This document shows positions 1,861 to 40,708 of a DNA stretch of 53,738 nucleotides, piece after piece. The notes under the pieces are model-generated. The model had not been told where the DNA came from. It did no database searches and was given only the letters and a program-made list of their open reading frames with translations. The translations under genes were made by a program, and so were the position numbers. The stretch's first letter is position 1. Each line of letters opens with the position of its first letter. This DNA comes from Gracilaria domingensis. Lineage: Eukaryota; Rhodophyta; Florideophyceae; Gracilariales; Gracilariaceae. The stretch is from contig VCMS01000489.1 of the NCBI GenBank assembly GCA_022539475.1, positions 1-53,738 on the forward strand, read 5' to 3'.

Positions 1861-1880
1861 TGCCCAAATGTGCCCCGGGT

Positions 1881-4960: not shown

Positions 4961-5175
4961 GGAGTTCAGCCCCTAGTTCCGAGTTTGATCGCTCTTGGAT
5001 GAAGATGATGCTCCTAGAGACGGGAAGGAAGGGGGGTCAGAAGAGTGGGCTGACGTTGAGGAAGTAGCGTCTGATCCCGTAGAATCAGGAGACAACTGAC
5101 TCAACGCCAAACACATCCCAGGGACAGCTAGCCTGGTTATCACTTGAGGAGGACGCACACGTGCCGCACCAGGCC

Positions 5176-8076: not shown

Positions 8077-8079
8077 GTT

Positions 8080-10640
8080 CCTCGGAATTAAATAAACACC
8101 TATGGAGCACCTATGCACCACTTTGGTTAAACATCACAACCTTCTGAACATCGAAACTTTTGGCAATTTTCTACCAGGGAATGGGGGTTGTTTGATCGAT
8201 TGTTGCCGAGCCCACAGCGGCGCTGTGCTGGTGGCGCGCACGTTGCGTTGCTGTACCGCCTATCTTTCGGCCCCTTCTCAGTACAAAATGTATACACGTG
8301 CGCGTCGGTGCGTGCAAGTACATTTCGCTCTCGCGCTCATTTGACAAGTGAAAAGCACCAACGTTGGCCGTGCGCAATGGTGACTCCACGCTCATGCGAG
8401 TTCTTCTCCGTGATTTTGAAAAGACGCCAGTGCTCGAGATCTTCAACCTTATAAGCGTACTTGAGTTTGATTTCAACCGTTCAAACCAGTAGTTAAACTA
8501 TGACTCTCCACTTTTAACTGCCATACAACATCCGAGCCATTGTGCTCGCCGTGCTTTTCAGGAGAGCAAGCACAGAGTAGCTCGTCCCCGTCGTACTACT
8601 GACGTCCCGCAGTGCACCACATGTAGACTATCTCTTTGCTACACAAAACGAAAACCATCTGTTGCTCTTTGCATCGTCCTTCTCACTTGCATTTGAATCT
8701 CTGCGAGTAAACGTCTACTAACAACACAAAAACAACCAACTCTATCAAAAACCGTTCATAGCGGCACGAAAGGAGTTTTCATTCAGCTGTAGAACAGAGT
8801 ATATAATGTATCGCCTGAAATAGTTCACAGATGCCTAGGAGCACAGCGAAACATTTCTGCTTTGCAATCCTCTCCATTTCGTCATTAGCACTCATTGTCC
8901 ACGCTCGACCACCAATCAACATCCGCAACCCATGCCTCTAACGATCTTGTCACTGACGCATGTTCCACAACAACGATTAACAACTTATTGCATGGCATGC
9001 TGAGAAACAACGACCATTGAAAAGAAGCGGCGCTGCCCTCCACAACTTGAAAGAGAACTGTGAATCATTGAGAGCGACTTTAACGTTTTCTCAACCTTCG
9101 ATGGGAGATTAATCCGGGTCAAGGCAAGGTGGTTAAAAAAACTATTTAATGATATTGTAGGAAGATAATTAGTTGGCGTTAAATAGTGAAAGATGGGGGT
9201 TTGTACAGAAGATCGTCCAATGAGAACTTCGATAAGAGGAATGGGACGAATTTAGGTGAACAAAAGAAAGTGTGCCACGAGCTCAGAAGGCCGAATAGCT
9301 TAACACTCCTTGCTTGCACGGTACCGCATTGATTTCTTTGATCTAGTAAGAGCCCGGGTTTTAATGACGTCTAACGAATACGGTAAAGACAATGATCATC
9401 ATACGTCATTGGATGGGAGAGAGGTACCTTTGACGCCATTGAAAAGGCCGTTCGGATGTCAAACAACAAGTACTTGGCAGATAAAGACTGTATATGCGCG
9501 AAGAAAAGGACAAATGATGGTTAAGCGTAGACGTAGGTAAAATGGAAGGTGGAGGTGGTTATAAAAAATGGCAAAATATCCATGCTTTAAAGGACGTTAA
9601 AGATTGAAAACAGTTTGCGGAGAAAAAGGCACAAAGATGTATTTGGTGATAAAGATAAAAGCAAGGGTGGCAATGTTATGGATTGTACTTTTACTATTTG
9701 ATTGTGAATATTATGATTGAAATGGGCGGTGTGCTGCTGAGTGGGGCTGATAGTGAGCCTACGGTTGAGAAGATATTAATCCTGCGCAGCTTTTTGTTCG
9801 TTTAAGAGATGGAGATGAGATAAAACGTGTATGGTGTACTATAATGTGCGCCAGGAGGCCTAGATGAGTTGCGCAAGAGAAGCTTATTGTCCTTAGAAAC
9901 GTGATAGACGTGCTGGAGAAGGCGGTGAAAGTGTTCTGCACAAGACAAGGGTTGGTGGAGGAAAGGATGTTGAAATTGGATGTAGAAGGAAGGACAGAGA
10001 TGGGAAGTGCGGGAAGGGTTGCGGCACAGAAGGAGTTCTTTTTGACAACGAAGACGAAGGCTGGTAGTTTTGGGCACCGGAAGAGCCGTCTGACGAAGAG
10101 GCGTAAGGAGAAGAGGATGGTGATGGAAGAGGTGCCAAAGGAGGCAATCGGGGCTCCGGTCTTGACTGGGTTTTTACGTAGGGCATGAAACTGCGAACGG
10201 CCCAACGAAATCAGGCGGCGCATAAGGAGAAAAGGATGGGGAGGAATGGGAAGCTGTTTTTGGGCGACGCGGGTGTACGGGATTGGGGAGGGTTGCTACC
10301 CGTACTTCTACAGAAAAGCTTTTGGGGAGACGAACAGGAAGGATCTGAACGCAGGATCGGCGAAAAATGAGTAAAGAGTGATTGCGGTTTGGATGGGAAG
10401 GAACGTTGGGATGATTGAGGTAGGATGAGTTGTGATTTTTGTTGCAACTCAGAGGAAAATGGAAACGCAAACTAGCACGAGTGCAGTTTTGAGAGAGGGT
10501 CGCGGAAAAGAGTGAATGGGGTGGTGCGGCGAAGTAGAACCTCTACAAAAACTAGGAGACCCAAGAACTAAACTGCGCAAAATGGAATTTAATATTCCAA
10601 AATTTCTTAATTTTTTGAGTGCCAGCCTCTGCCACCCCCT
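8080..10640. other. Region without convincing genes; purine-rich patch at 9.5-10.5 kb
   Basis: No domain-bearing frame was found. From about 9540 to 10560 the plus strand is markedly purine-rich, with GGAAGGA, GAAGAGG and AAGGAGAAAAGG runs. This creates several overlapping low-complexity open frames on the minus strand (Ser/Pro/Leu-rich) and a Lys/Arg/Glu-rich frame on the plus strand. I regard these as compositional. The outer end of the left copy of the duplicated cluster probably lies somewhere between 10.5 and 10.66 kb, but its partner end is lost, so it cannot be placed. Confidence 0.4.
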
Positions 10641-10664
10641 CGCGCGCCCCAAATAGCTCCAAAA

Positions 10665-11855
10665 CTAGCTTAGTTTCCAAAGCGAACAGACTATATTCCA
10701 CTTTGCAGAACACAGACGTGGGTTGTCCTTCATTCCCATGAGGTCGTCTTCTTCCACAAAAGTCGGTCGAAAATGGTGATTCAGATGAACTGCATCCGGC
10801 CAACTGTACTTCTCTGGTACCATATACATATGGTAGCGAAACAGTGGATTTTCCGGTAATCTTCCATCTTTAGTGCCCGCACCGGCATGAAATACATCCC
10901 CCCTCCCAATAAACACAGGCATAGGTGGGACAAAGAACTTTCTCACAACCATTCCTCGTGCCAGCCCTTCAAATGCCTTTGCTGTTACAGCAAAGTGATT
11001 GTGGGATCCTTCACATATCCAAAGTGGGAATGACACAGTTCCGGAGACCATCACGAAGTACCCCGGGTTCTTCCGCTCCAGCTTGTCTTCGTTTGTCAAG
11101 GTCTCGAAGTCGGTATGTAGTTGCTGTCGCTGGCAAGCCACTCCAGTACATAAGATCCTCCCTCCCGTCTTCGGTGCGTACATTCTCTCATTCGGTTGCT
11201 TGTTGTCTTGTAGCCCCAACGCCGCACATATCTGGCCAAGCCGAGCAAATAACAACGCCCTCTTCTTCACAAGCAAATGCGTCTCCGGTCTATTCTCCCG
11301 CTCGTCCACTATACCTCTTCTCGTCGTCATATACCTCCCATTGTCCGCGTTGATTATAGAAATCCATGTAGTTCGATTCTCTGGTACCCTGAGGTCTGGG
11401 GCTTCTTCGAAACTTTTTTTTGAAGAAATCCAATAACTGGACGCTTACATCTCCATCGATGAGCTTGCTGGAACTTTCAGCCATCTTCAAAAGGTCATTG
11501 TCACAAGCAAAGCCTTTCAAAATGCAGAAACCTCTCTCCCGAAGCTCAGCCTTCTTGTTCACAAAATACATATACGCGACGGAATCGTTTTTCACTGCCT
11601 CTGCCCATAGGGTCCCATCATCAACCTCCCCCTCTCCTACCGCTTCGTTGAGAAGCTTCTGACCCTGATACGCAGCATGCCAAAACACAGCATGATGTAC
11701 TCCTTTAAAGTCCTTCGGCTCGAGCAAATGGCCTCGGTGCTACTTCCGGAGATGTATCGCATCCATCTACGGATATACCGACTTAATCCCGTCCACTCCA
11801 GCAGGCTACTTGGTAGGAACTGCTTTCAACAATTTCAACCACGAATCCCCCCCAT
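10665..11855 (-). pseudogene. Fe(II)/2-oxoglutarate dioxygenase-like protein (frameshifted)
   Basis: Two minus-strand frames (11727-11290 and 11330-10665) join into one protein. The N-terminal part has ERGFCILKGFACDNDLL, which fits the entry strand and helix of 2OG oxygenases. The second frame carries the iron site. HTD (codon about 11117) is the HxD pair. A core follows with FPLWICEGSHNHFAV, then GDVFHAGAGTKDG (distal His about 10889), and an Arg 17 residues later that would bind the 2OG carboxylate. The layout resembles phytanoyl-CoA dioxygenase-like and other double-stranded beta-helix oxygenases. An ATG at 11855 lies one base after the stop of the ParB-like gene, but its frame closes after about 23 codons, so the true start is unclear. 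The frame change near 11300 breaks the gene. The right copy is missing because the LTR element replaces it. The substrate is unknown. Oxidation of methylated nucleic acid or histone is attractive given the neighbours, but is inference. Confidence 0.6.
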
Positions 11856-11856
11856 C

Positions 11857-14449
11857 TTAAGGTCCTTCGTGTGCTTTTTTCAGCCCCGGGGGTAGAATTT
11901 CCGGGACTGTGTCGTCGAAAGGATCCGTGTCGTCTCCTCGCGTCTCAACATTCGGCGCTGAATCAGAGTCCGTGTCGCTGCTGAAGGAGATTTGATAAGC
12001 TTTGAGGAAGCTTTTGACCCCTTTCCCTCCAAGCTTACGCAGATGATTGATGAAGAATGTTTCATCTTGCGGCACTTTGTTTACTTTCGCCTTCTTCTGA
12101 GCCCTGGGGTTGTTATCGCTCATCATCTTCCTTCGTCGACGACTTCTTCTGGTGCTCCTTCTCAACCCCGCACCACTTGGCTCCACTAAAACCACGTCGC
12201 TTACCACTTCCTGAACGTCTTCCCCGGCATTCTTCGCCTTAAAAAGTTTAGGACGCGACGCCCGAATATCCGGTTTAGTGACTTGGGTCGTAGGCGTGGT
12301 CGCTTTTCCCCCTTCCGCCGCAGACGGCCCCATAGTCGAATTGAAATCCACCCCGACGGACTTCGTCAGCTTTTCACGAGCATAAGCCACCCTTCTCGAT
12401 ATCTTTCCGCCCCAGAGTTTCTTTGTAGCTGCAGTTTCCAGGCGTGCGACCTGTGTCGCAAGATACTCACGAAGGCTGAGTTTCTCAAACCTAGTGACTT
12501 CAATCTGCATCTCGTACACTTCCTTCAGAGAGAGTCTCTTTCTCTTCGATATTTCAACGGCCAGCTCATTTAGAGACCGGCAGCAAATAAAGAAATACTT
12601 TCGCATGTCTTCAAAGCGGCCCTTCAGTTTGGACTCTCGTCTCCTCGCAAAATATGCGGCCAGGGCGTCCAGGGTGAAATCGGTTGTGTCCTCATCCATA
12701 GAAAAGAACTGATCACTGGAGATACATGTAATACCAAATTCATTATACTCCCGACACACACTTTCCAAATGCTTCAGCAATCGAGGACTCTTAGCGACCT
12801 TCAAACCCATCTCCGCAAACCTCGATAGATGCCTGATATGGTACTGACCTATGATTCTGCATACATTTAAGGCACCCGCTACAGCGGTCCTTGTCATGTT
12901 GTTCAATACTTTCTTCTCCTCTTCAACCATCGCGATTATAAAGGATACAATGGAATGAACCTTGTCGGCGAAGTTCATAAGTAGGGCCTGCTTCAATCCA
13001 TCGTTCAAAGCATTACCCAGGCTCAGAAGCTCCCTCGTTTTCATCTTTTGTCCATCCTTTCTCCTCCATAAGGAAACGGTAAGTCCTTTACACAGTTTCC
13101 TTATCTTTGCATCCACCTCACATAGTTCCTTGAGTGCCACAAGACGATAAGCCCCATTTATGAGGATACACGTAACTTTCACGCGATTGCCCTATACCAT
13201 CTCCTTCTCGGAATTACACGTGATCAAAATAGCAACACCCATCGTTCCAAGGGCCTGAAGAAACCCTCTCATTCGAATATCCGCCTTCAGAGCTTCAACA
13301 TGCTCCCGAACTGTCCCTCTCACAGTTGCGTCCGGGATTTCGATTAGGTCGATGTCCACCTTCACGGACTCGCACTCATAATGGTCCAGGGTGAACTTGA
13401 GCGACGCCAGACTCATATTCACGTCAACCGAAGGTAATTCATCACCTTCGTCGAATAGTTCATTCACGTTTCCAGCCAAGCTCTCCTTCACCAAAACAAC
13501 GTCGTCATCATGCACTTCATCCACATCCACAACTTCCATTCTAGCTCCACTGCGACTCCCAGCCATTGCAATCGCTTCAGCAGTACTATTTCTGGACGAC
13601 CCAGACTGCACATTCATCGCTGGTTGCTTCCGTAATGCAGAGACCGCACTCTCTGGAATTGTGGTCAATTGTACAGTTCCTACCTTTGTAACACCCTGGT
13701 CTTGCTTAGATAGAATTTTTTGCACAGGCCCAGGCGCTGGGGGCGGTACTTCCTTCCCCCTTGGTTCTTCTGTTGTTTGCCTGGTGTTTAGGCCTGGGCT
13801 ACCTGAGGTAGCAACCGCTTCCCACTCGGTGTACGCGGGGGGGTTTCGGTGTTTCCGCCATACGCACTCGTTTCCGTCCTGTCGTGGACGCCGCATTGGT
13901 ATGCCCTGATTTCTTACTGGGCACCTGCGGCGTGGTGTTCTGAACGGTCTCACCCGAATCCATGAAGTTCAAGTCTCAAGCATAGAAACCCATCTTATTT
14001 AAGTCCGCAACGGTCTTCGAAATGGAGTCTTCATCCGTACACTTAAACGGAAACGAGTACGGTGTATGGAATTCCTTCGATACATCAGCTCGCCATATAC
14101 CGACTATATCTTCTCCCGGCTTCCCGTCCAGTTTGTGACCATGCATTTCTCTTCGATAGTCTTTGCCGTCGCCGGCACACTCGATGGCCACCACATCAGC
14201 CGTGCCAACTGGAACCTTGTCCACTCCATTCCCCGCGATAAGAAGCGTCACTTTGTCCCCCGGTGCGGGTTTCGCTTTCCCCGGGTTAGAGCTCATACTC
14301 TTCTTCGGATTCTGTGCTTCCCCACTACTCTTCTTCCCTCCTTATTTTGTCTTCTTCGCACTTTGAAGATGCGGCGCCATGGGGTTGCGAACTTTCCGCG
14401 GCTCTCAGGAGGGCCTCATCTGCCGGTTGCCCAATCCTCTTGGCTCCAT
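11857..14449 (-). pseudogene. ParB/sulfiredoxin-like domain protein, left copy (about 860 codons)
   Basis: It starts at an ATG at 14449, equivalent to the ATG at 33186 in the right copy, and ends at a TAA at 11857. An N-terminal domain of unknown type (about 14300-13970) is followed by a Pro-rich linker. Next comes a ParB-like fold at about 13365-13123: VKVDIDLIEIP, a helix HVEALKADI, then INGAYRLVALKEL, which matches the ParB box (G-x-x-R-x-x-A). A long helical region follows. The C-terminal part has Arg/Lys clusters (RRSTRRSRRRRK, about 12160) typical of a nuclear signal, and an acidic end. ParB-like domains bind DNA, and some are nucleases or CTPases. In phages they often accompany DNA methyltransferases. 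Disabling changes against the right copy are stops near 14415, 14345 and 13978 (TGG to TGA), a 7-C versus 5-C run at about 13841, and GAG to TAG at about 13192. Confidence 0.6.
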
Positions 14450-14747
14450 TATATAGCGTGTTTGAATTCAGCTTCGTGAAACACCTATAAAGCTTGAATG
14501 CAGAACAAAGCGGTAATCGTATAATGCTCTGATCATGTAAGCAAACGGCGCACTCGCTCGGTTTGAACACGGTACACGCTTCGCTGTCGGTTGAAGTGTC
14601 GCACTCGTTCGTATCGCAGATTTGTAGTGCAGGACGCGGAAATGCTCGCGTGAACATTTGCATCACTTTGAAAGAGTGGTATAGGCGGTTAGAGGCGGTG
14701 CAAAAGGCTTAGATGAATACCAGACAGCATGATAAACCCCCACGGTT

Positions 14748-15900
14748 CCCCCCTGGTACCCTCCTGTGGTAGCCGGATGCGACGTGCTCAGACCGCGGTC
14801 CGAGTGCGGTCTGAACACGTCGCATCCGGCTACCCCGCCACCCTACGGGGGGTGGGAAAGCAGGTTGTAGGGTACAACGTAGAGCTGAGTAGAGCTACGC
14901 AGAGCACATTTGTCGTTTCACATCGCAGTTTATACGTATCTACATAGAGGCAAGAAACAATTTCCCGCGGATTTGGTTTAATCGATGTTCAGTTTGAATG
15001 CCGAAGAGCAGAGCCATTCGAGAATGAGGGCAGTCGTGGCAGCACCAATCGCAATTGTACGGGTATTATGGTCATCGATTTTTGTCGTGAAAGCAGTCTC
15101 AGAAGGACCCTCACCACGTTCAGTGGCGGGCGGCGACTGTACAGATCCTGTCGTTGACGTGTTCTGCTCTTGTTGTGGGTGATTGTGTTGGCGCTGCATC
15201 ATCAACACGGTGTGAGCCAGAAAGTGCATTTCACGCAATATGCGCTAGCTCGTATCAAACTGAGTGCTTGAGACAGACATCCAGCCCGGCGGTGGGTGTG
15301 TAGCGCAGTCATTAGGCATACCGAGATCAGCAGCTGCGGCCACGGCGGCTGCAGTCGTCAAGGCAGCGCTTTTGTGGGTGTTTGCGCCTTGCGACGGTCG
15401 TTCTCATTACGTGAAAGGCGCTGCGGACGCCTGGCGAAAAGGAATGTGAGCGCTGTAAAACGTCATGCTCGTTACTACATTGGTATTACCAGTACGGGGA
15501 GTGGGAGGACCTAAGCTGCATGTTGTTCCGGACGCTCTTGTTGTTGAGTGCGACGGATGCGGTGGTCGAATGTTGCGATGACGATGGGGTCTGGACGCCT
15601 TGCGCCTGCGCAATGAAACCGCTGTTTGGGTGCGCACGGCGTTGGAGCGCAAGCGGCGAGAGTAGAGGGGGACAGCGTACTGGAGATTTGTATGCAGCCC
15701 TATGACGGCGGCTATGATGATGATGCAGATAATGATGTGGGAGGAGCCGGTCGGTGGCAAATAACGGCGATTCTGAGTCGTATAGGATCATATCTCATCT
15801 GACCCATGCGCGCTACAACCCCCTTCACACGTGGCCTGATACATGGTTTCACAGTCTCCAGACCGCGGTCTGATCACGTCGCATCCGGCCACCAGGGGGG
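14748..15900. mobile_element. 1.15 kb hairpin-bounded segment, left copy
   Basis: The segment begins with CCCCCCTGG (14748-14756) and ends with its inverse CCAGGGGGG (15892-15900). Inside each end lie inverted matches: GCCGGATGCGACGTG and CAGACCGCGGTC on the left, GCATCCGGCC and GACCGCGGTC on the right. The left end carries an extra 13 bases between the two blocks. A 67-base hairpin (14768-14834) sits at the left end. A degraded plus-strand frame inside (about 14985-15797) includes MFSLNAEEQSHSRM and Cys pairs (CERC, CDGCGG). It also has an acidic YDGGYDDDADNDVGG stretch, conserved in the other arm. It may be a small nested DNA transposon, or the element's own central control region between divergent genes. 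No convincing target-site duplication was found. Confidence 0.45.
14768..14834. promoter_or_regulatory. GC-rich 67-bp palindrome in the divergent intergenic region (left)
   Basis: The arms GGTAGCCGGATGCGACGTG and CACGTCGCATCCGGCTACC are inverted copies, continuing inward with CAGACCGC and GCGGTCTG around a short centre. The related right-arm hairpin lies at 32800-32867. A half-site with the perfect 14-base palindrome CAGACCGCGGTCTG lies at 15859-15872 (31780-31793 in the right arm). Placement between divergent genes fits a protein-binding site (ParB-like or other), a replication or transposition end, or a bidirectional control element. Function is not shown by sequence. Confidence 0.5.
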
Positions 15901-16106
15901 TTACTACTAGGTGACTCTACACAAGTCTGCGTACTACACCCGCTCTCGCAACCCTGTTCACACCCCCCTGCGTACGAATAACACCCGCTCAAATACGAAT
16001 TTAGAATAACGTTTCATCACCGCCGTCTACTACTCTTTCGAGAACTCTTCCAGCGAGTTTCATCGCCACCGCCTATTCCGCTTTCCCGAGTTCTTGCGAG
16101 AGTTAC

Positions 16107-19100
16107 ATGGCGCCCGTCGGAAACAGACCCCTCTGTGGTCTTAACAGCAGAGCGATGTCGACTACCGCATCTTCCGTGGCATCTACGGAGTCTAGCTCCG
16201 GTTAGAAGGATATTATGGCGACGCGGTTCTTTCGTTTGTTCTGCATACTTCTCGAGCTGAGAGACTCGTTTGCGGCGCCTCGAGGCGGCATTAGTTCCCC
16301 TCGTCAGGTTGGGTACACGGCTCTCATTGAGTAAGCTGTCGCAAACCGTGCCAGTCTGGCTTATGCACGGGAATTTCTCACTGATGTTACGAAGAGCACG
16401 TACGCAAACTATACGCCGCAGGAGCTGGTGAAGATAAGTACCAATGTTAGGTTCATAAGTCGGGTCTATAAGTATGTCCGTATCATTGACGTGGATGACT
16501 GGAGTGAGGATCGTCCGGTGAGGGATCTTTTCGAATGGAGTTTGGATAAGAATGTGGATGGCGGGAATTCTTTTATGGAGCGTGTGTTCTGGAATGGCTT
16601 ATTCAAAGAGCATGGCCCCGGATCCAAGCAGACGAAGAAAACTAGCTTCCGGATTGATCCTGCTACTCGTTTTCAGCAGTTGCTCTATCTATCCTTAGTG
16701 AAGCGTATCACTATGGAGAGGCGACTCCCAGTTGCGGAGAAGGCGAGGACTGCAACTGGTTCTCGGAGACAGGTGCCGTTTGTTGATAGTTTCGTCATGT
16801 CAAACCAAGCGCACATGAGGCGGATGGGTTATGCTGTGCAAATGGTATGTCTAGGATCGGATTCCTTTGCTTCCAGTCTTGCATTTCGTGACGCAGAACA
16901 AATGCTGTTACGGTTTCTTGCCATAGAGAAAGAGACGGTTTTCTTTCGGCGCAACTGAGTCCCGTTCTTCCGAATACAGCCCAGTATCGGTGTTAAAAAC
17001 ATTGGGGATCGAAGTGAAGCCAACCACGGAGGTCAACGCTACTGTGCCTTGGGTTCACAACCTTTCGGATGATATCGATGCCAAACTAAGGGATTTGTTA
17101 AAAGAGTTCCTGTCCGATTTGAACAAGGTTGTCTTAAACGGATTTCTGTACAAAATGTCCGCTACTACCAAGTGGGAACTGCTGGAAAGCTTTCGAAGGA
17201 AACTTCGGACACGGTTTCCATCTCGTTTTGATGCTTTCTCCGATGAGTATTTGGCTACTCTTCGTACCGCTGTGGTCCAGCTGAACCTAAGACCTTCCCA
17301 GCAGCTATCCCGGGCTACTCTGTCATGGCGTCAGGAAGGAAGCAACACGGTCACGTTGAAGATTGAGGATACAGTTACGGCACAGAGAACTATTTCCTCC
17401 AGGCCAAGGGCTAGGGCGGTGGGTAAAACATCCGGTAAAATATCCGCTGCAGACCCAGGTCCGGTGGATGTCACTGGCATAAACGACAGGGATGATGAAG
17501 ACGATGGAGCGCACCCCCTTTCTAATGTTCTTGGTGGTATTCTTCCACCTCACGACTTTGGCGATGTAAGGACGACGAAGGCTCTCGGTGTGGTCAAAAA
17601 GAACATGGAGCAACAGTTCTCTATGCATTTCGTTGGTGATGAAGAGTTAGTGGAGGCTCATGGTACACTGCTCCCTTCCGATAATTTCCTAGAGGGCAAT
17701 GTTCAACTCGTACTCACGGACCCACCTTATGGTATACATGACAGTGAGCATGATGAGCTTCTCGACGAAGATATGGTTAATAATACAAAAATGATGGCCT
17801 CAATGCTTCGCCCTGGCGGTCATTTTATAATTTTCTGTACTATCGAACAGTTCGCGGACTGGGAGGAGATTCTACGTTAGCACAAATCGGAGAATGCAGT
17901 GGGGAGGCAAAGTGCTTCGTTCTTAGTCGACCCCACACCGAAGCAATTCATTCGCTCTCGTACGCACAATTTGAAGAACCCCGGAAGGAACACAACACGG
18001 TTGTTCTCTGCAACCGAGTATGCCGTGCACGCAGTCCGGAATGGAAACGCGTACGAGGAGCAGAAGGTGATGGTGAAGTACAAAAATCTCAACTACGTTC
18101 TCACGCAGTACCCCGGGCATTACTCTGTTATCGATCAGGTTCCGCATCTGGAGGCTGGTGAAGGACTCCGTTGGAAGGTAAAGAAGCGTTCCAAAATACA
18201 CTCGGTTCAGGTTCGCCCCGAACAGAAACCGAGGGCACTGCTAAAGGAACTCATTGCCAGGTTCTCAAATCCCGGGGACGTTGTGGTTGATCCCTATAGT
18301 GGAACATTTTCCGGTGCCTTGGCTTGCATGGACATGGAAGAGCCCCGACGCTGTATTGGATGTGAGAGTGATGATCAGTGCTTCGCTCATGCTGAACACA
18401 ATGCTGTAGTGATGTAGGCGAGGAAGGTTTGGGGTAACGAGTTCAACGCAAGAATAATTGTCAGTAATGAGGTCGTTCAAGCCTCGTATTTAGTACAGAC
18501 AAAGTTCCCGGAAGGGAAGCAAATAATCTCGCGTATATGGATCGCTCCGAAAGGATTCCCGCCATACGCAACGTTTTGCAGAGAACCGAATCTCATCCGG
18601 CAGCACAAGGAGAAACCAGTGCACGAGTGGCCTCTGAATCTCCAATGCACATTGGAGACGATGGATGTACAGACTTTGCTCGCAGCTGAAGCAGCAGATT
18701 TATGGTTGTACAGGAAGAAATCAAACATCAAACACCCCTTAAGTGGAGATGAAGTGTTCAGTAGTAGATCGTTCTCGGAAGAAGAGGTTGTCGGGTACTT
18801 CTATGGGACATTGGTATATCATGACATAAGCCGATGCAATGCAAAACAGATGAAATACGGAAGCGGAGTGCTCGGTGCCACCGTTTCTCGTTTCAGGAGG
18901 TGTTGCATGGAAGTGAAGCTGAAAGGGCAGATGTACAGCACGCTTCCTCACTATGACTCCGAAATCAATACTGCGATTGCGTGGGTAGTACCCGCTCCTT
19001 TCTTTATAGCGGGCTAAATCAATGATGCTTCGTACCGGGATGGGGACGAAGAGAAGGATTTGGCCGAGATAGAACCCTACCAAGGCCGCTTACCAAACGC

Positions 19101-19254
19101 TATTATTGGACAGCCCTCCAAGTATCAAGCTACCACATTGTGTACACTGGCAAGCTATAGCCTACTGTTGGTGACGGCTACAAGGGGTATTCATGAACAC
19201 GACGAACTGTACGTAGACTATGGACCCAGCTATTTATGGAAGAGGTATTTGTAA
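16107..19254 (+). pseudogene. DNA amino-methyltransferase fused to SET domain, left copy
   Basis: The start is an ATG at 16107 (MAPVGNRPL), conserved at 31545 in the other arm. After an N-terminal region of unknown fold (16107-17000) and a linker, the methyltransferase has motif IV DPPYG (17719-17733). A middle region follows, then motif I-like VDPYSGTFSGALA (about 18287-18325). The order IV then I marks the beta class, which methylates adenine N6 or cytosine N4. From 16990 the frame runs to the TAA/stop at 19254 and includes a SET domain (about 18740-19250): GDEVFSSRSFSEEEVVGY at its start and HEHDELYVDYG at its end. The NHSCxPN position reads INDASYR, so the knot motif is altered. In-frame stops occur at about 16206 (TAG), 16335 (TAA), 17878 (TAG for GAG), 18415 (TAG for TAT) and 19015 (TAA for TAC), with a frameshift near 16940. 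The fusion is visible; activity is not. Confidence 0.75.
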
Positions 19255-19803
19255 CTCTCCCATGCTTTATAGTTTGACGTAGTACAAACTGTTGTAGTGT
19301 ATTTCATAACTACTGCGTCATTTATTGAATGCATTCATCATTCCAGTAAACCTATTGTTGCAGGAATCGACAACGTGGCACAAGGACACATTGTCGTGCT
19401 AAGCAAAGAGCTACCAAGAATACTCCACAGCGGTCAGAGCTACCACCTTAAAAGCAACACCTCAGAATTAACACCTCACACCCGGGAGGTTGGACCAAGG
19501 AAAAAAGGACCTTCATCATGAAGGGACCCGACAGACGGAACTGGCACATAGAACATAGCCAATGAAAAATACGGCCATGGGAAATGTGGAAAATTGGTAT
19601 GAATGTCTGCCACAGGAATGGACCAGCTCACTCAGGGCTCAAGAACCACTGAAGGTCTCCATCACCTGCTGCAAAGGGTTTACAAGCTTCCCCCCTTCCG
19701 CTTTTTCACCCCACAAAACGAGCAGAACTCCAGAAGCTTCCGTTTCCCCACTCAATAATCAGAACATAATCACTTCCTTTTCACGCGATTTTGAAGCGCA
19801 ATC
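19255..19803. other. Intergenic region between methyltransferase-SET and coiled-coil genes (left)
   Basis: This 549-base stretch is conserved in the other arm at about 27823-28369. A frame from a GTG at 19297 (about 74 codons, YFITTASFIECIHHSS) is open in both arms, but no ATG or domain supports it. It most likely carries the 3-prime end of one gene and the promoter of the next. Confidence 0.4.
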
Positions 19804-22295
19804 ATGGCTCCACAAAAGTCCAGCAACGCGGACGACCGGGGGACGAAGGGATCCCAAACAATCCCGCGATATGGTATTGGCGTCGCTAAGCGGAAGACAC
19901 CTCCGCCTGCCGCGACCCGAAGAAGTACTCGACGACGAGCTCCCCGTGTCGGGCTTACTGGAAAAAGTCTGGTTCGAAGTCAGCACTCCGGGCTTTGAAG
20001 GCAAAACCGAAACCGAAGCTGGGTGTTACTACGACCACAACGGAAGTGACGGAGAACGAAGTAGTATTACCACATCACAGCTCAGTGGGGGGGCGAGTTA
20101 CACGACACATGGCTGCAGAGGAAGTGCCAAGAATAATCTATGATGTGAATGTGGAAGAGAATATTGCCGAGAGACGTACGAGAGCGAAAGAAAGACGGAC
20201 AAGAAATTTGAGAAACAATGTCATCGAAGAAGAGTTTCACAGAAATGAAAGAGCCATCTCACCTGGTAGGACGAGGCGCATTACAAACGATTCAATTCAA
20301 CCCCTACGTAGTGGGGACGAAGAAGGAGCCGATGATATACAGCCCACTGTACGTGCGCTTGCAACATCGCGAAGGGAGATCAAAAGTCGGAACGATCCCC
20401 TTCATGCCGATCGTGCTAGTGACGAGGTAGAAGTCGATAATATAAAGTCCTCTGTACCTGCGCCCGCACCGTCGAGAAAGAGTTTCAGCAATGGAAACGA
20501 TTCCATTCATCCCGAACGTCGTACAAACGAGGAAGAAATCGACGAGATACAGCCTGCTTCTCGTACGGTCGTACCATCGCAGAATAGGTTAAACCAAATG
20601 AGAAGGAAGGGTTCGACCTCGATTTCCTTTGGCGAGATGCGTAGGGAACGGACAGAGGTGGGGTCAGAATTACCAAGAGAGACATGGAACGAAACGGGTC
20701 GTAATGCGGCAGGTCGCCGGAAAATTAACCGTACGTTTCCATCTCGTGCTCTTGCTGTTGTAGACGAAGAAGGTAAAGAAGATGAAAACCTAACGCCAGG
20801 GTACGAGCTGTTGGACAAGATTGGAGACTTGAAAGCGGATCTCTTTCGAGTAACCGAGGATAATCAAAGTCTGAATATGAGCGTAAGAATAGCACAGAAA
20901 AGCGTGACGGAAGTAGGGCAAAAGGAGAAGGAGCAAGATGTTCTAGTACAATCACTTCGAGAGGCACTGAAGCGAGGAGCAACACGGAGGGAGAGTGAAT
21001 CGCACAGGGGAAGAAAAAGATACGAGATTGATGTGAACGACGCGTATGTAGGGGTAGCGAAGACAGTATACGTGTCCATACTGCGCTACGCGAAAGACGA
21101 GACAAGGGAATTGTGCTTCGAGATGAGTTCACCGGCGAGAAACTGGGGGAATCGAAGTGAGACACTCGGATCTGAGACTGAGTACAGTGTGCTGGTCGTT
21201 GATGGGAAAGAGATTGTTCCACGCTGTCCAATGGAGGTCGCGATGGAGATTAGAGCGTATACTCCATCGATTCGTGGTACGGGTCAAAACTTGCGGATGC
21301 AAATCGTGGAGACGGAGGTAATGAAACCTCGTTGGGAATCCATCCGGGAGATGAAGATGGAAGAAGACTGCATTAGACAGCTGACCAACAACATGTGCTT
21401 ACGGAAGAGGTTGAAGCAGGCCTTGAGCGATGCGGTGGGGGTTCGAAAACGCCATGCGAAGGAGAAGTTTTTGATGGGGCTAGGGTATGAAATGTTGGTG
21501 AAGACACCATCTCATGAGAGGGAGAGGAGCATATACCTAAAACAAGCGGAGGAACTACGGGAGAAGCTTCTGCCGCTAGATGCAAAAGGGTGTGAGATTC
21601 TCTCCACATGGAGAACATCCAAAAGAGAGGACATATCATTTTCCGGGTTCAAAATGCGTAGCGAAGAGAACAAGCCGCAAGACTTGCTGTTTAGAAACGT
21701 TCTAAGCCTACAGGTCTTACGGGAGTTTATGGGTTACGATGTGAACCAAAAGGATTCGAGAAATGCGGGTGACAAGGACCCAGTGGATGGAAAAATAGTG
21801 CAGTTGGCGCGTCTAGATGCTTGGATCGCGTCAGTTGTTCGAGCTACAGAGTTTGAAGGAGGGCGGGGGGTAAAAGGCAGGTGTTTTTCTCCAACCTTTT
21901 CGGAAAGTATACTGATGGCTGTATGAATGAAAATGGAGCAGAAGTTTGGAACGTAGTTCAGGAACGACTCAATGGCTCAAGATCCACGCCATGGAAATGA
22001 TGACCGTCTGAGAACTGTGGCATACTGGATACCGTCTAAGAAGAAGCTATATCTAGCTGTTCGAGAAGATGTATTTATGGAAGAGATTACGGAACATCTT
22101 GGAGCCGTAATGGATTGCTATATTGGGTATTGTGACCCACGGGATCGCGTATACTCCCCTATAAGAGCAATCGATGAAATCCGAGATAATAATGTGATCG
22201 ATTGTAATCCGAATGTCTGGGGACAAGGTAGGGAACGAGACGGGGGAGGTGTGGACGATGAGCACGAGATGGAAGACGAGGAAGAGAATATCTAA
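19804..22295 (+). pseudogene. Coiled-coil protein with three internal repeats, left copy
   Basis: An ATG at 19804 (MAPQKSSNADD) matches the intact start at 27822 in the other arm. A one-base deletion near 19966 shifts the frame, which then stays open from 19995 to 21926. A TGA (CGA in the other arm) and a TAG interrupt it before the final part (21972-22295) with an acidic end. The N-terminus is rich in Arg (RRSTRRRAP). Three tandem units of about 36 residues follow, each with an N-D-S-I/L-H/Q-P-like start, an acidic DEE core and DxIQP. A coiled coil (IGDLKADLFRVTEDNQSL onward) then leads to a conserved globular region. I do not recognise the family. The basic N-terminus and coiled coil suggest a chromatin-bound or structural partner. 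The protein is about 85-90% identical to the right copy. Confidence 0.7.
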
Positions 22296-23888
22296 AGTAC
22301 ATGAACAGTTTATGTTAAGAATGTTACGTAGTAGGAGTATGATGAATGTGCGCTCGAGGGTTACGATAGAATCTGTTAATGTAGAAACGATGGAATTGCT
22401 AGTGAAAGGGAGGGGAAAATGGTCGGGCAGGGTAGTTTTGGCGAATGACGTGTATGGAGCCTTTGATTGAGGAGAACGGGATAAGCCCGAACCAAGGAGA
22501 GACCGTAGCAGAACGAGGTTTCATCGTTGACGTTCTTGGATGCACGGTGTGATCATGCTCGTCGTCGGTGGCCCAACGGAGTGATATACAGTTCAGAGTT
22601 TCATCAACGTTATTCAAGGGCTCTGTCACTTCGAAGAAACGAACGAGAGCGAGCTCCGATTCAGAGTTGTCTAAGGTCTTGTCCCTGACGCGAAGCAATG
22701 CAAATACTTTGCATACGCACGCTGTGGAAAACATACAGTTGGGAGGGAGTGTTCCGTGCACGAGAACCGTGGAGAACGTAGGCAACTTGGAAGGCCCGAA
22801 GGAGTTCGTAGCGAAGATGCGTTCACATAGTTGTAAATCGGGCCTTCTCAGTCTTATGCACCGAAGATCAGCCGATCGCTCAATACATCGATGACGAGGG
22901 CAAAGCCCGCTAGAAAACGTATGACAGAATCTAACGACAGTGAGTTTTGATCTCGTGAGGGTTCTTCAGCTGACTTGAATAGTTTCTACACAAAGGTTGC
23001 GAAAGGAGGAGAGAGCGTCGCGAGATATTTGGTTGATGGAACTTGCCAGTGTGGTTGTCGAGAAACGTCTTGCCAGAGCCGAAGAAGATACATGTGGGCA
23101 TGCGGATCGTAGGCGTGCGTACTAGTCAGCTGTGATGATGTGTCAAAGAGTGAGAAGAGTTACCCTGGCGAAACCATGGCTGGAACAAGCGGTTGATGGA
23201 AGGCTTCGATGAGGTTCGGAGGAGAACAGAGAAGATGACCTTCTGACCGAAAGATTGCAAATAGTTCTGCGACTATTGAATGTGCGTTCACCGTTTCCTT
23301 ATGAGCTGCTGTTTCCCTTCGAGGAAGTTCGACGATTGTGGTTCATTGAAGAGAAGATGAGCATGTTCGTACACGCCTTGCATCCGCCAAAGTGCAGGCC
23401 TGCGTACTCGCCGTATGTCTGCGTAATGATTGTGCGTTAAAGTTAAGTGAAACTTCAAGAGGTACGAAAGTTGGATTGGCGCTTGGTGCCGGCCGAGAGT
23501 GGAGACTGTGTGAAATTTGAATTCTATTAATCCTAGATTCTTCCAATTGCATCTATGCGACTGCTCCGGTTCCATTCTTGCGTAGATGTTATTAGGCGTA
23601 AGGAACGTTGTTGACTCGAGGTTCAACGCGTTAGGATTGAACACTGGGTAATACGGGGCGCAGTGATCCTCACCCACAAAGCGGTTAAACCCGAAAGAGC
23701 CAATGAAAGGCAAGGACCCATATCAAGGGTAACGGGTAGTCCTTGGCTTCCATTACATACCCGGTTGATGCCGTCTGTCGTGAAGAAACCGTGAGAGAAT
23801 TTTCTTTTTTCGGATGCTGGAGAAGTCGATGTTGAAGTCCGGATGCCGGATAGGAGCTCTCATATCGGCAGAAAATGGGCGTTGGCGT
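22296..23888 (+). pseudogene. Degraded conserved inner region of left arm
   Basis: Sequence from 22296 to about 23180 matches the inner right arm (24483-25410). Small conserved coding-like islands occur, such as FEETNE (about 22640) and DAKQCKYFA (about 22690), interrupted by stops in both copies. A Cys-rich stretch near 23050 (CQCGCRETSC) is not preserved in the other arm. This suggests a fourth gene of the plus-oriented unit, now decayed. From 23180 to 23888 no counterpart is available because the gap begins at 23889. Confidence 0.4.
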
Positions 23889-24482
23889 NNNNNNNNNNNN
23901 NNNNNNNNNNNNNNNNNNNNNNNNNNNNNNNNNNNNNNNNNNNNNNNNNNNNNNNNNNNNNNNNNNNNNNNNNNNNNNNNNNNNNNNNNNNNNNNNNNNN
24001 NNNNNNNNNNNNNNNNNNNNNNNNNNNNNNNNNNNNNNNNNNNNNNNNNNNNNNNNNNNNNNNNNNNNNNNNNNNNNNNNNNNNNNNNNNNNNNNNNNNN
24101 NNNNNNNNNNNNNNNNNNNNNNNNNNNNNNNNNNNNNNNNNNNNNNNNNNNNNNNNNNNNNNNNNNNNNNNNNNNNNNNNNNNNNNNNNNNNNNNNNNNN
24201 NNNNNNNNNNNNNNNNNNNNNNNNNNNNNNNNNNNNNNNNNNNNNNNNNNNNNNNNNNNNNNNNNNNNNNNNNNNNNNNNNNNNNNNNNNNNNNNNNNNN
24301 NNNNNNNNNNNNNNNNNNNNNNNNNNNNNNNNNNNNNNNNNNNNNNNNNNNNNNNNNNNNNNNNNNNNNNNNNNNNNNNNNNNNNNNNNNNNNNNNNNNN
24401 NNNNNNNNNNNNNNNNNNNNNNNNNNNNNNNNNNNNNNNNNNNNNNNNNNNNNNNNNNNNNNNNNNNNNNNNNNNNNNNNNN
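23889..24482. other. Assembly gap (594 N)
   Basis: A run of unknown bases separates the two arms of the inverted repeat. Left-arm sequence of about 700 bases just before it has no partner on the right, so the missing part likely includes the right-hand equivalent and the centre of symmetry. Open frames drawn across the gap are meaningless. Confidence 0.99.
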
Positions 24483-25416
24483 CGACGGTAACTCCTTTCT
24501 CACTCTTTTGACACCTCAATCACGTGACAGAAAGTACCTACGCATCGCTCCACATGTAACTTTCTTCGCCGGCGATCTCGGCCGACTTTCTTCGAACAAC
24601 TCAACTACCACTGACAGATCATCACGGCCAATCCTTCGCGACGTATTACTCCTTCGCCCCTTTGGGTGTGAGACATTAGAGCTGAAGAACTCAGGGCATA
24701 AGATCACTGTCATTATCGTGTCGTAGGTTTTAGCAGGCTGATGCCTCTCTGGATGATTACGATGGATTTGATGCATGAGAGACTGAGGAAGCCTGATGTC
24801 GACTAGTGAACGATTTCGCTAGATCCTTCGGATTCCAGGTTGTAAGTTTCCATGGTTCTCGTGCACGGAACACCCCGTCCAATGATAAGATTTTTCCACT
24901 GCGTAGAGTTGCAAAGTATTTGCATTGCTTCGCGTCAAAGACAGGAATTTAACAACTCTGAATAAAGCTCGCTTCGTTCGTTTCTTCAAAGTGAAAGGGC
25001 CTTGGATAACGTTGATAAAATCGTAACTGTTTATAACTCCATTGGCCACGACGACGATCTGCTCCACCGTACATCCAAGTAGTCAAGATGAGACTAATTG
25101 TGTTACAATCTCTCCTTGGTTCGAGTTATCCCATTCTTTCAATCAAAGCGCTATATACTTTATTCGCCAAAACTACCTACTCGTCCATTTTTCTCTCCCT
25201 TTTACTGGCAATTCCATAGTTTCTACATTAACAACTTCTATCGTAGCCTCGAGCTACATTCATCATACTTCTACTACGCAAATTCTTAAAGTAAACTGTT
25301 CATGTACTTTAGCTGCCGTCTTTCTCATGTTCATGTCGTGCTCATCGTCCACGCCTCTCGCTTTGTTCCCTACTGCGTTCCCAGACATTCATATAGCAAT
25401 CAATCACGTTCGTATA
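24483..25416 (-). pseudogene. Degraded conserved inner region of right arm
   Basis: This is the counterpart of 22296-23180. The same islands occur (FHFEETNEA near 24985, FDAKQCKYFAT near 24930) but with different stops. It likely held the last gene of the unit that also encodes the methyltransferase-SET and coiled-coil proteins. I do not recognise the product. Confidence 0.4.
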
Positions 25417-27822
25417 TTAGATTTCATCGATTGCTTTTATACGGGAGTATAAGCGATCCCGTGGGTCGCCATACCCAACATAGCAATCCAATACAGCTCC
25501 AAGATATTCCGTAATCTCTTCCATGAATACATCTTCTCCAACTGCTAGATAGAGTTTTTTCTTCGACTGTATCCAGTATGCCACAATTCCCAGAAGATCA
25601 TCATTTCCATGGGGCGGCTCTTGGGCAATTGGGTCGTTCCCGAACTCCATTCCATACTTTTGCTCCATTTTCATTCGTGCAGCCATCAGCGTACTTTCTC
25701 ACGCCTCTGGAACATACTTTCCAAAGAGATTAGAGAACAACACATGGCTTTTACCCCCGTGCGTTCCTTCAAAATCTGTAGCTCGAACAACTGACGCTAT
25801 CCAAGCGTCCAGATGCGCCAGCTGCAATATTGTTCCATCCACTGGGTCTTTTTCTCCGCCATTTCTCGAATCGTTCTGGTTTACCTCGTAACCCAGAAAC
25901 TCCCGTAAGATCTGTAGGTATAGAACGTTTCTAAACAGCAAGTCTTGCGGCTTGTTCTCTTCGCCACGAATTTTGAACCCGGAAAATGGTATGTCCTCTC
26001 TTTTGGATGTTATCCATGTGGAGAGAATCTCACACCCTTTTGCATCTAACGGCAGAAACTTCTCCCATAGTTCCTCCGCTTGTTTTAGGTATATGCTCCT
26101 CTCCCTCTCATGAGATGGTGTCTTCACCAACATGTCATACCGTAGCCCCATCAACAACTTCTCCTTTGCATGGCGTTTTCGAACACCCACCGCATCGCTC
26201 AAGGCATGCTTCAACCTCTTCCGTAAGCACATGTCGCTGGTCAGCTGTCTGATGCAGTCTTCTTCCATCTTCATCTCCCGGATGGATTCCCAACGAGGTT
26301 TCATTACCTCCGTCTCCACGATTTGCTTTAGCAAGTTATGACCCCTACCACGAATCGATGGAGTATACGCTCTGATCTCCATCGCGACCTCCATTGGACA
26401 GCGTGGAACATTCTCTTTCCCATCAACGACCAGGACACTGTACTCAGTCTCAGGTCCGAGTGTCTCACTTCGATTCCCCCAGTTTCTCGCCGGTGAACTC
26501 ATCGCGAAGCACAATTCCCTTGTCTCGTCTTTCGCGTATCGCAGTATGGACTCGTATACTGTCTTCGCTACCCCTACATACGCGTCGTTCACATCAATCT
26601 CGTATCTTTTCCTTCCCCTGTGCGAATCAAGCTCCCTCCGTGTTGCTCCTCGCTTCAGTGCCTCTCGAAGTGATTGTATTAGAACATCTTGCTCCTCCAC
26701 CTTTAGCTCTAGTTCCGTCACGCTTTTCTGTGCTATTCTTACGCTCATCTTCAGACTTTGATTATCCTCGGTTACTCGAAAGAGATCCGCTTTCAAGTCT
26801 CCAATCTTGTCCAACAGCTCGTAGCGTGGCGTTAGGCTTTCATCTTCTTCACCTTCTTCTACCACACCAGCAAGAGCACGAGATGGAAGCGTATGGTCAA
26901 TTTTCTGGGGACCTGCCACATTACGACCCCTTTCGTTCCATGTCTCTCTTGGTAATTCTGACCCCACCTCTGTCCGTTCCCTACGCATCTCGCCAAAGGA
27001 AATCGAGGTTGAACCCTTCCTTCTCATTTGGTTGAACCTATTCTGCGATGGTACGACCATACGAGGAGCAGGCTGTATCTCGTCGACTTTTTCCTGGTTC
27101 GTACGGCTTTCGGGATGAATGGAATTGTTTCTATTCCGGAAACTCTTCCTCGGCAGTGCGGGCGCAGGTACAGAGGACTGTATATTATCGACTTCTTCCT
27201 CGTCACTAGCACGATCGGCATGAAGGGAATCGTTCCGATTTTTGATCTCCCTTTGCGATGTTGCGAGCGCACGTACATTGGGCTTGATACCATTGGCTTC
27301 TTCTTCGTCCCTACTACGTAGAGGTTGAATGTAATCGTTTGTAATGCGCCTCGTCCTACCAGGTGAGAATGCTCTTTCATGTCTGTCCAACTCATCTTCG
27401 ATGACATTGTTTCTCAAATTTCTTGTCCGTCTTCCTTTCGCTCTCGTACGTCTCTCGGCACCATTCTCTTCCACATTCGCATCATCGATTATTCTTGGCA
27501 CTTCCTCTGCAGCCATGTGTCGTGTGACCCGCCCTCCCACTGAGCTGTGATGTGGTAGCACTACTTCGCTCTCTGTCACTTCCGTTGTGGTCGTACTAAC
27601 ACCCAGCTTCGGTGTCGGTTTTGCCTTCGAATCTCGGAGTGATGACTTCGAACCGGACTTCGTTCCAGTAAGCCCGACACGGGGAGCTCGTCGTCGAGTA
27701 CTTCTTCGGGTCGCGGCAGGCGGAGGGTCCTTGCGCTTAGCGACGCCAATACCATATCGCGGGATTGTTTGGGATCCCTTCCTCTCCCGGTCGTCCGCGT
27801 TGCTGGACTTTTGTGGAGCCAT
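25417..27822 (-). pseudogene. Coiled-coil protein with three internal repeats, right copy
   Basis: This is the better-preserved copy. An ATG at 27822 opens 707 codons to a TGA near 25699, and the frame resumes from about 25686 to a TAA at 25417. The early stop comes from about 21 extra bases between two AAAGTA repeats (25690-25720), absent in the left copy. By residue: Arg-rich segment 39-50, RRTRAKGRRTRNLR (124-137), three acidic tandem units about 160-265, coiled coil about 330-392 (LELKVEEQDVLIQSL), globular region to the end. The left copy also carries an acidic tail that this copy loses to a stop (CGA versus TAA). No enzyme motif was seen. It follows the methyltransferase-SET gene by about 550 bases on the same strand. 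Confidence 0.7.
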
Positions 27823-28369
27823 GATTGCGCTTCAAAATCGCGTGAAAAGGAAGGGATTATGTTCGGATTATGGAGTGGGAAACGGAAGCTTCTGGAGTTC
27901 TGCTCGCAGTGTGCGGTCGAAAAGCGGAAGGTGGAAGCTTGTGAACCCTTTGCGGCCGGTGATGGAGACCTTCAGTGGTTTTTGAGCCCTGAGTGAGCTG
28001 ATCCACTCCTGTGGCAAACATTCATACCAAATTTCCACATTTCCCATGGCCGTTTTTTTCATTGGCTTTGTTCTATGTGCCAGGTCCGTCTGTCGGGTCT
28101 CTTCATGATGAAGGTCTTCTGTTCCTTTCTCCAACCTCCAGGGTGTAAGGTGTTAGTTCTGAGATGTTGCTTTTGAGGTGGTAGCTCTGACCGCTGTAGA
28201 TTATTCTTAGTAGCTCTTTGCTTAGCACGACAATGTGTCCTTGTGCCACTTTGTCGATTCCTGCAACAATAGGTTTACTGGAATGATGAATGCATTCAAT
28301 AAATGACGCAGTAGTTATGAAATACACTACAACAATTTGTACTACGTCAAACTATAAAGCATGGGAGAG
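27823..28369. other. Intergenic region between coiled-coil and methyltransferase-SET genes (right)
   Basis: This is the counterpart of 19255-19803. The same non-ATG open frame (about 28327-28103) is conserved. No independent support for a gene. It probably carries promoter and 3-prime end sequence. Confidence 0.4.
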
Positions 28370-31300: not shown

Positions 31301-31545
31301 GCACGGTTTGCGACAACGTTTTCAACGAGAGCCTTGTATCCAACCTGACGAGGGGAACTAATGCCACCTTGAGACGCTGCAAAGGAGTCTCTCAGCTCGA
31401 GAAGTATGCTGAACAAACGAAAGAACCGCGTCGTTATAATATCCTTCTCACCGGCGCTAGACTCCGTAGATGCCACGGAAGATGCGGTAGTCGACATCGC
31501 TCTGCTGTTAAGACCACAGAGGGGTCTGTTTCCGACGGGCGTCAT
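28370..31545 (-). pseudogene. DNA amino-methyltransferase fused to SET domain, right copy
   Basis: An ATG at 31545 (MTPVGNRPL) starts a frame that meets a TAG at 31183 (TAT in the left copy). The remaining protein is readable in segments: 30972-30637, 30664-30371, 30482-29963, 29882-28935 and 29119-28370. Motif IV is DPPFG (about 29936-29922), motif I-like VDPYSGTFSGALA lies near 29360, and the SET domain runs from about 28860 to 28370. It retains YINDASYR and HEHDELYVEYG. This arm is intact at all of the left-arm stop positions I compared (GAG, TAT, TAC). Between the methyltransferase and SET parts it has about 33 extra bases plus two single-base losses (about 29050-29110), which disconnect the domains in this copy. 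The fusion is therefore read directly only in the left arm. Confidence 0.7.
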
Positions 31546-31751
31546 GTAACTCTCGCAAGAGCTCACGAAAGCGGTATAGACGGTGGCGATGAAACTCGCT
31601 GGAGGAGTTCTCGAAAGAGTAGTAGACGGCAATGATGAAACGTTATTCTAAATTCGTATTTGAGCGGGTGTCAGTCGTACGCAGGAGGGTGTGAACAGGG
31701 TTGCGAGAGCGGGTGTAGTACGCAGACTTGTGTAGAATCACCAAGTAGTGA

Positions 31752-35920: not shown

Positions 35921-35923
35921 AAG

Positions 35924-40707: not shown

Positions 40708-40708
40708 C

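Follow-up and report, generated by a model that had tools for sequence, protein, structure and literature searches.

Which kind of genetic element carries the gene cluster at 10.7–23.9 kb of a 53,738-nucleotide stretch of the red alga Gracilaria domingensis (GenBank assembly GCA_022539475.1, contig VCMS01000489.1, positions 1 to 53,738), and what its predicted DNA- and chromatin-modifying genes contribute to it, are the questions raised by this locus. The whole stretch is referred to as the window and corresponds to contig C489 of the searched assembly (77.9 Mb, 680 contigs). Judged from comparison of its copies, the cluster is a truncated and decayed copy of a dispersed DNA transposon of about 20 kb. 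An earlier note had regarded it as a selfish mobile element, which is borne out by dispersed copies, common termini and a transposase gene in its relatives.

Copies, termini and transposase

As previously stated, the cluster is present twice within the window: positions 12686–23164 align in inverted orientation to 34946–24487, showing 88–92% identity. The two copies are joined across 594 N, and their local arrangement depends on scaffolding. Moreover, the genome search suggested earlier, in which parts of the cluster served as queries and copies and termini were inspected, revealed dozens of dispersed copies with common 25-bp termini. Window positions 12000–13900 obtained at least 43 matches at 85–100% identity, mostly near full length (best 40 of 115 candidates scored), and positions 20000–21900 at least 41 matches at 80–100% identity (best 40 of 151 candidates scored); both values are minimum numbers, in which the copies of the window itself are counted. 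On other contigs, seven copies read together with their flanks extend beyond the window segment, with main blocks of 87–94% identity.

Over a segment of 2.1 kb, copy 1 and copy 2 are 92.5% identical, and the window copies reach up to 93.5% identity to copies on other contigs. Since they are no nearer to each other than to copies elsewhere, the two window copies look like independent insertions. A single locus duplicated once locally, the case that the earlier note had set against mobility, was rejected, as the copies are dispersed and those of the window are not sisters. A tree of ten copies (90.5–94.2% alike over the 2.1-kb segment) is star-like, which is the pattern of a transposition burst followed by decay. 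Both window copies are broken by in-frame stops and frame breaks, including three TAG codons in the methyltransferase-SET reading.

The terminal repeat common to the copies is CGTCTGTGTTCTCGTTTTGCTAGTT, comprises 25 bp and is inverted at the right end. Its 24-base form has 112 matches with at most three mismatches in the genome, and none for the reversed control. In the end-distance test, for which 100 of the 112 places were used, 20 of 40 places had a correctly oriented left repeat within 9 kb (at 4.4–4.8 kb in 17 cases), and 13 of 40 places had a correctly oriented right repeat at 5.3–5.8 kb; wrong-orientation controls yielded 0 (left) and 1 (right). Since the termini occur at near-constant distances, the length of the full element is estimated at about 20 kb. 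The C36 copy spans 22.5 kb between its terminal repeats, inserts included. Within the window, the terminal repeat was not found when up to five mismatches were permitted.

Flanks of 2 bp were identical in three of ten end pairs (C184, GT; C21, CA; C37, GT) at about 0.6 expected by chance (binomial p=0.02), and non-identical in C128, C122, C36, C187, C106, C157 and C73, among which C187 is broken by 1301 N and the ends of C157 and C73 are 34–38 kb apart and perhaps mispaired. The repeat pairs of C184, C21, C37, C122 and C128 are just 7–10 kb apart and probably represent internally deleted derivatives.

That no known transposase is visible, as stated in the earlier note, holds for the window and does not hold for its relatives, which carry a gene matching Plavaka (PF18759). 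In the right part of the C36 copy, a minus-strand frame matches this family with E=1.4e-4 and 21.7 bits, under the curated cut-off of 26.3 bits. A genome search with PF18759 gave at least 123 matches among 672 candidates, five of which lie inside copies of family 1, i.e., the family of the window copies, and score considerably higher (C78, 78.8 bits; C157, 69.2; C219, 67.6; C132, 67.1; C351, 64.0). The gene is located near the right end of the relatives and is enclosed by the terminal repeats in, e.g., the family-1 copies C78, C157, C219 and C351. The window is devoid of this part: both copies end at the run of 594 N, and a fragment at 23291–23722 has no Pfam match. Plavaka transposons are described as having a target site duplication of 2–3 bp and, in the CMCT clade, DDE catalytic residues together with C(2)C and H(3-4)H motifs. 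By eye, a suggestive FHNFH sequence and a late E were recognized in the broken Plavaka frames of the copies read.

Features of the two window copies

Copy 1 and copy 2 comprise the following features:

10716–23888, plus strand: copy 1 of the transposon, lacking both termini (alignment to seven copies); limited by other repeat sequence at about 10716 and by the N run at 23888
10668–11739, minus strand: part resembling a 2-oxoglutarate (2OG)/Fe(II)-dioxygenase, frame-broken (open reading frames (ORFs) 10668–11444 and 11293–11739; homologues P0007–P0010)
11860–14341, minus strand: ParB-like part, broken (ORFs 11860–13191, 13195–13968 and 13979–14341)
14768–14834: palindrome with 29-nt arms and a 9-nt loop, a shortened form of the longer ones of relatives
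14835–15860: segment of about 1 kb between palindrome-derived arms (copy comparison)
16335–19014, plus strand: methyltransferase-SET gene, broken (16335–16955, 16927–17877, 17881–18414 and 18418–19014); an 811-residue open relative is located at L010:4735–7167, and both of its regions align in P0001–P0005
19890–22292, plus strand: coiled-coil gene (ORFs 19890–21923 and 21957–22292)
23291–23722, minus strand: putative fragment resembling, by eye against C36 frames, the C-terminal part of Plavaka
23889–24482: 594 N between the copies
24483–34946, minus strand: copy 2, inverted, ending at a long terminal repeat (LTR) retroelement (alignment)
25702–27831, minus strand: coiled-coil gene of copy 2, open frame of 710 residues
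28373–30011, minus strand: methyltransferase-SET gene of copy 2 (ORFs 28373–29161 with SET and 28938–30011 with a DPPF-type methyltransferase motif)
32798–32869: palindrome of copy 2 (palindrome scan)
33168–34390, plus strand: N-terminal ParB-like part of copy 2 (ORFs 33168–33830 and 33722–34390; alignment to copy 1)

Scans of the window for tRNA and Rfam families gave no match, and PADLOC reported the methyltransferase only.

A predicted DNA methyltransferase fused to a SET domain

The DNA methyltransferase family PF01555 was assigned to 17881–18414 with E=1e-13 (Pfam), and a further match to it had E=2.5e-14. The SET family PF00856 matched copy 2 at 28373–29161 with E=2.3e-4 and 22.0 bits, just below the cut-off of 22.4; Pfam did not find SET in the copy-1 piece 18418–19014 and did not call it in the 811-residue open frame of C132, which ends inside the SET region. 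This frame has five homologues (P0001–P0005; 968–1311 residues, 27–38% identity), in all of which the methyltransferase and SET regions align within one protein, and PF00856 is precomputed for three of them. In the alignment, DPPY precedes an FxGT-like motif, which is the order of class-beta DNA adenine methyltransferases. Among solved structures, those of the adenine methyltransferases DpnA, CcrM and MboIIA are nearest to the methyltransferase part and that of the lysine methyltransferase KMT5A to the SET part.

Based on these matches, the gene product is a predicted adenine-type DNA methyltransferase fused to a SET domain. The earlier note had listed a DNA writer and a possible histone writer; both domains were recovered, and they reside on one fused protein. 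The catalytic capacity of the SET part is uncertain: NH is usual at a position at which the alignment shows ND. In the prokaryote and viral collections, five loci each were matched by the methyltransferase residues alone, and none in a single-sequence scan.

The divergent ParB-like/2OG-like frame

In the family-2 copy C140, the ParB-like match (148226–150310) is located inside a stop-free frame of 1326 residues. The 2OG-like part at 151031–151897, which is 70% identical to that of the window, follows in the same phase within a 1-kb stretch without stop; for 150311–150899, continuity was taken from the length of the open frame. Because phase is shared and stops are missing, both parts are predicted to form one protein in family 2, and the description as two genes was dropped after the shared phase had been found. 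In family 1, one C187 frame and the gene model P0006 likewise extend beyond the ParB-like tail and reach the start of the 2OG-like part. Furthermore, open 2OG-like frames of up to 1308 residues in the list of P0009-like matches would fit the same fusion. The 2OG-like part of the window is thus probably the 3' part of a single gene that also encodes the ParB-like part. A possible oxidative eraser and a ParB-like module had been proposed earlier; both parts lie in one frame in family 2, and both labels are weak.

Regarding the ParB-like part, which is open over 732 residues in C187, no Pfam match was obtained. A borderline match to the PHROG ParB family (E=0.016) was found for P0012, one of two sequences, and none for the family-2 sequence; hhalign against phage-type ParB gave a weak E=0.059. 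The signature of 2OG-Fe(II) dioxygenases consists of the metal ligands HxD and H and a following R. Among eight aligned 2OG-like sequences, the D and the distal H are present in all, the first H in seven and the R in six; C140 keeps HxD and H and lacks the R. Profiles of Pfam, PHROGs, NCBIfam and the Protein Data Bank (PDB) provided no convincing match for this part, including TET/JBP, and a scan of viral contigs with its alignment detected none.

Between the copies, C/T differences amount to 4.7% at CpG vs. 4.3% elsewhere, at a CpG observed/expected ratio of 1.0; C-to-A/G differences are likewise higher at CpG (4.7% vs. 3.5%). These values give no clear sign of decay by 5-methylcytosine, and for this reason the 2OG-like part is not primarily expected to erase 5-methylcytosine. 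Since CpG decay is missing, a possible role of adenine methylation in the control or protection of red-algal transposons could be studied in this genome.

The sequence to the left of copy 1 (9701–10718) recurs in C351 beside the same transposon, at another internal breakpoint; several kb further out, C351 has a frame similar to the 2OG paralogue P0008. Another 2OG-like gene (P0009) is present in three copies on contig C382, one of them in an ORF of 876 residues.

Palindromes between the divergent genes

Both window copies contain a strong palindrome between the divergent genes: 14768–14834 in copy 1 (score 25) and 32798–32869 in copy 2 (score 26). These are the only ones scoring at least 16 in the scanned parts of the window (1–9700, 10700–23888, 24483–34946 and 34947–53738); the palindrome-rich centre described earlier holds one palindrome per copy at this threshold. 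Twenty shuffles of copy 1 reached a maximum of 11, and one of four other loci scanned, the host locus L051, reached 17. Further intergenic palindromes were found in C132 (130 bp), in C187 (118 bp, and a second one by folding) and in C351 (53 bp when scanned strictly, long by folding), those of C36, C110 and both window copies being shorter. Close to the right end, C132 and C36 each possess a further palindrome, with scores of 18 and 28.

In family 2, the palindrome has 68-nt arms, 99% complementary and without a loop, and shares its core with family 1; in family 3, several palindromes of other sequence are located just upstream of the methyltransferase-SET gene. Because symmetry was kept while the sequence changed, the palindromes suggest a putative protein-binding site.

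The segment of about 1 kb at 14835–15860 lies between the palindrome-derived arms 14767–14800 and 15861–15894. It is missing from C351, and the gap between both genes in family 2 is too short to hold it. It represents a nested insertion or a deletion. An invertible promoter was rejected, since the segment has the same orientation across the copies compared.

Related families and selection

Two related families, about 60% and 35–50% identical to the window's family, keep the order and strands of the main genes beside Plavaka. Family 2 shows about 56–66% identity in searches with the ParB-like and methyltransferase-SET genes, with many open frames, and about 54–66% for the membrane gene, a few places having 42–50%. 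Its gene set comprises methyltransferase-SET, the palindrome, the ParB-like/2OG-like frame and the membrane gene, beside Plavaka. In a 7-kb stretch of C20 representing family 3, Plavaka and 2OG-like genes enclose a coiled-coil gene (36%) as well as a methyltransferase-SET gene that is distributed over several frames and is up to 49% identical to P0001. The coiled-coil protein of copy 2 is 36% identical to that of family 3 over 390 aligned columns. Nothing convincing was found in profile libraries for the coiled-coil protein or for the membrane protein, the latter having four hydrophobic stretches.

Gene neighbourhoods were compared for at least 56 methyltransferase-SET, 61 ParB-like, 123 Plavaka and 62 2OG-like places in the scored lists. 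Of 30 pairs of ParB-like and methyltransferase-SET genes within 25 kb of each other, 26 are divergent at a distance of 2.2–5.1 kb. Of 15 pairs of Plavaka and methyltransferase-SET, 13 lie on opposite strands at 6.3–7.2 kb, and these cover two families. Six of 15 Plavaka-2OG pairs are spaced by 12.9–13.0 kb on one strand.

Ratios of nonsynonymous to synonymous substitution rates (dN/dS) between families 1 and 2 are 0.123 for the ParB-like part (530 codons), 0.129 for the methyltransferase N-terminus (89 codons) and 0.078 for the 2OG-like part (288 codons, including the frame-shifted start in the window copy), these being rough values at a dS of 1.6–2.5, near saturation. Four comparisons within family 1 gave 0.48, 0.79, 1.11 and 0.71. 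Related families within one genome retain a multi-gene cargo for putative modification of DNA and chromatin, with signs of purifying selection.

Proposed function of the cargo and alternative explanations

The element probably represents a cut-and-paste transposon whose two divergent fusion proteins would constitute a module for self-marking or anti-silencing. We infer that the Plavaka-type transposase excises the element at its 25-bp terminal repeats and inserts it anew. The ParB-like/2OG-like protein would recognize the palindromes in the divergent promoter, cluster or spread on the element, regulate both genes and remove a competing mark. The methyltransferase-SET protein would write an adenine methyl mark on the DNA of the element as well as a methyl mark on a histone or another chromatin protein. 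As a result, the element would stay expressed, or its copies would be recognized, against host silencing. That it may manage its own DNA or chromatin marks, as was assumed in the earlier note, is consistent with the conserved domains.

Several observations weigh against this interpretation. Only three of ten end pairs have identical 2-bp flanks, and no complete copy with every gene open was encountered. Every gene was seen in family 1 only, family 2 not having been searched for the coiled-coil gene, and in family 3, known from the C20 stretch, ParB-like and membrane genes were not seen. The near saturation of dS limits the selection estimates. Three of eight other copies scanned (C278, C353 and C612) have no strong palindrome, and the symmetry could also have been kept by arm-to-arm conversion and not by selection. 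Furthermore, the ParB-like label, derived from borderline profile matches, and the 2OG-like label, derived from residues, are weakly supported, and P0008, P0011 and C140 lack the arginine that is expected to follow the distal histidine. Finally, we infer the anti-silencing step by analogy.

A more specific possibility, to be considered with some reserve, is a centromere-like marking, in which the two divergent fusion proteins would face each other across a palindrome, the ParB-like part would nucleate there and recruit the fused writer of DNA and histone methyl marks, and the 2OG-like part would reset the state, resulting in a self-propagating label by which copies are kept active or co-localised.

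It is unlikely that the cargo was passively captured from host or bacterial genes by a Plavaka transposon and plays no role in its life cycle. Such a capture would agree with the dN/dS values of 0.5–1.1 within family 1, which reflect gene decay, and with fungal transposons that moved TET/JBP cargo between lineages (PMC12730594, available text); however, the main genes have the same order and strands in related families, dN/dS between families is 0.08–0.13 and frames are open in many of the listed family-2 places. Slightly less probable again is a module manipulating the host, i.e., one modifying the chromatin of the host or of rival elements, for example in gametes, and not its own. Writer and putative eraser domains can in principle act in trans, and the membrane protein has no obvious role in self-marking, but the position of the ParB-like gene next to palindromes of the element itself suggests that the target is the element.

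Plavaka is very unlikely to be an unrelated neighbour of a cargo cluster that moves otherwise. The family is abundant in the genome and the window holds an unproven fragment only; however, distance and strand relative to methyltransferase-SET are constant in two families, and in the four family-1 copies named above Plavaka lies within the terminal repeats. Least credible is an endogenised virus-like element instead of a transposon: it is large, multi-gene and intron-poor, and giant repeats flanked by Plavaka occur beside viral insertions in Amoebidium (PMC11244446, available text), but the ORFs scanned gave no capsid, polymerase or packaging match, the viral-contig scans yielded five loci on the methyltransferase part only and none on the 2OG-like alignment, and short terminal repeats accompany a transposase gene.

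Further observations in the window and the genome

Copy 2 adjoins an LTR retroelement at 34947–50327, whose LTR stretches of about 975 bp are 99.2% identical and which has matches to reverse transcriptase, RNase H and integrase. It contains an internal tandem duplication of 3.4 kb (37298–40708 and 40710–44154, 96%). At 7267–7533, a tandem repeat of about three units of 85–90 bp is located inside long open frames; the frames scanned around it showed no family match. A short match with three stops at C106:53931–54200 belongs to the RNA polymerase second-largest-subunit family and may be a foreign remnant; four other strong matches to this subunit were obtained, that of C680 being the plastid-type rpoB. 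Contig C680 additionally carries eight strong and two weaker matches to phycobilisome genes, in agreement with a red-algal source. Zn-cluster and elicitin families gave no hit, their controls giving none either.

Comparison with known systems

In searches of the open-access literature, no report of this gene set was found among the records listed; a description may exist in subscription papers or in Repbase. The statements below follow the available text of the sources cited.

Fungal Plavaka transposons of the CMCT clade carry TET/JBP cargo, for which an escape from silencing was proposed (Kojima 2025, PMC12730594). Transposase family, terminal inverted repeats, putative 2OG dioxygenase cargo and proposed escape from silencing are alike in both systems. 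The termini of fungal Plavaka are TGT..ACA or CATCA..TGATG (subgroups PlavakaA and PlavakaB), whereas those of the G. domingensis element are CGTCTGTG..CACAGACG, and because of these termini it is assigned to neither subgroup. Moreover, the red-algal element has a size of about 20 kb, its 2OG-like part, for which none of the families tested gave a match, lies in one frame with the ParB-like part, and methyltransferase-SET, palindromes, coiled-coil and membrane genes are added.

For genes of the Plavaka giant repeats of Amoebidium, dinoflagellates or red algae were among the only matches (PMC11244446). Unlike the G. domingensis element, these repeats occur with tyrosine recombinases in tandem clusters, and their description there includes no methyltransferase-SET or ParB-like gene. 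They are hypermethylated, whereas no CpG decay was seen in the G. domingensis copies.

SET methyltransferases located on transposons are also known from HarbingerS and MuDR of Phytophthora (as cited in PMC12730594), which belong to other transposase superfamilies; a fusion to a DNA methyltransferase is not mentioned in that text. The N4CMT protein of bdelloid rotifers is comparable in that a bacterial-type amino-methyltransferase is combined with a chromatin domain in a eukaryote and linked to transposons (PMC8885841). It differs in being a captured host gene with a chromodomain and an SPPY motif (4-methylcytosine), whereas the G. domingensis protein is encoded by a transposon, possesses a SET domain and a DPPY motif and is expected to be of the adenine type. 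Furthermore, the viral contig L064 encodes a ParB-methyltransferase fusion, the ParB part of which matches phage ParB records. ParB-like and adenine-type methyltransferase functions occur together in both cases, in one fused protein in L064 and in two divergent genes (methyltransferase-SET and ParB-like/2OG-like) in G. domingensis.

Transposons carrying one epigenetic gene are already known, and the element described here carries a multi-gene cargo. One of its predicted proteins combines an adenine methyltransferase of bacterial type with a SET domain and would thereby link two marks directly; in the divergent neighbour, a ParB-like part and a possible eraser appear to be united.

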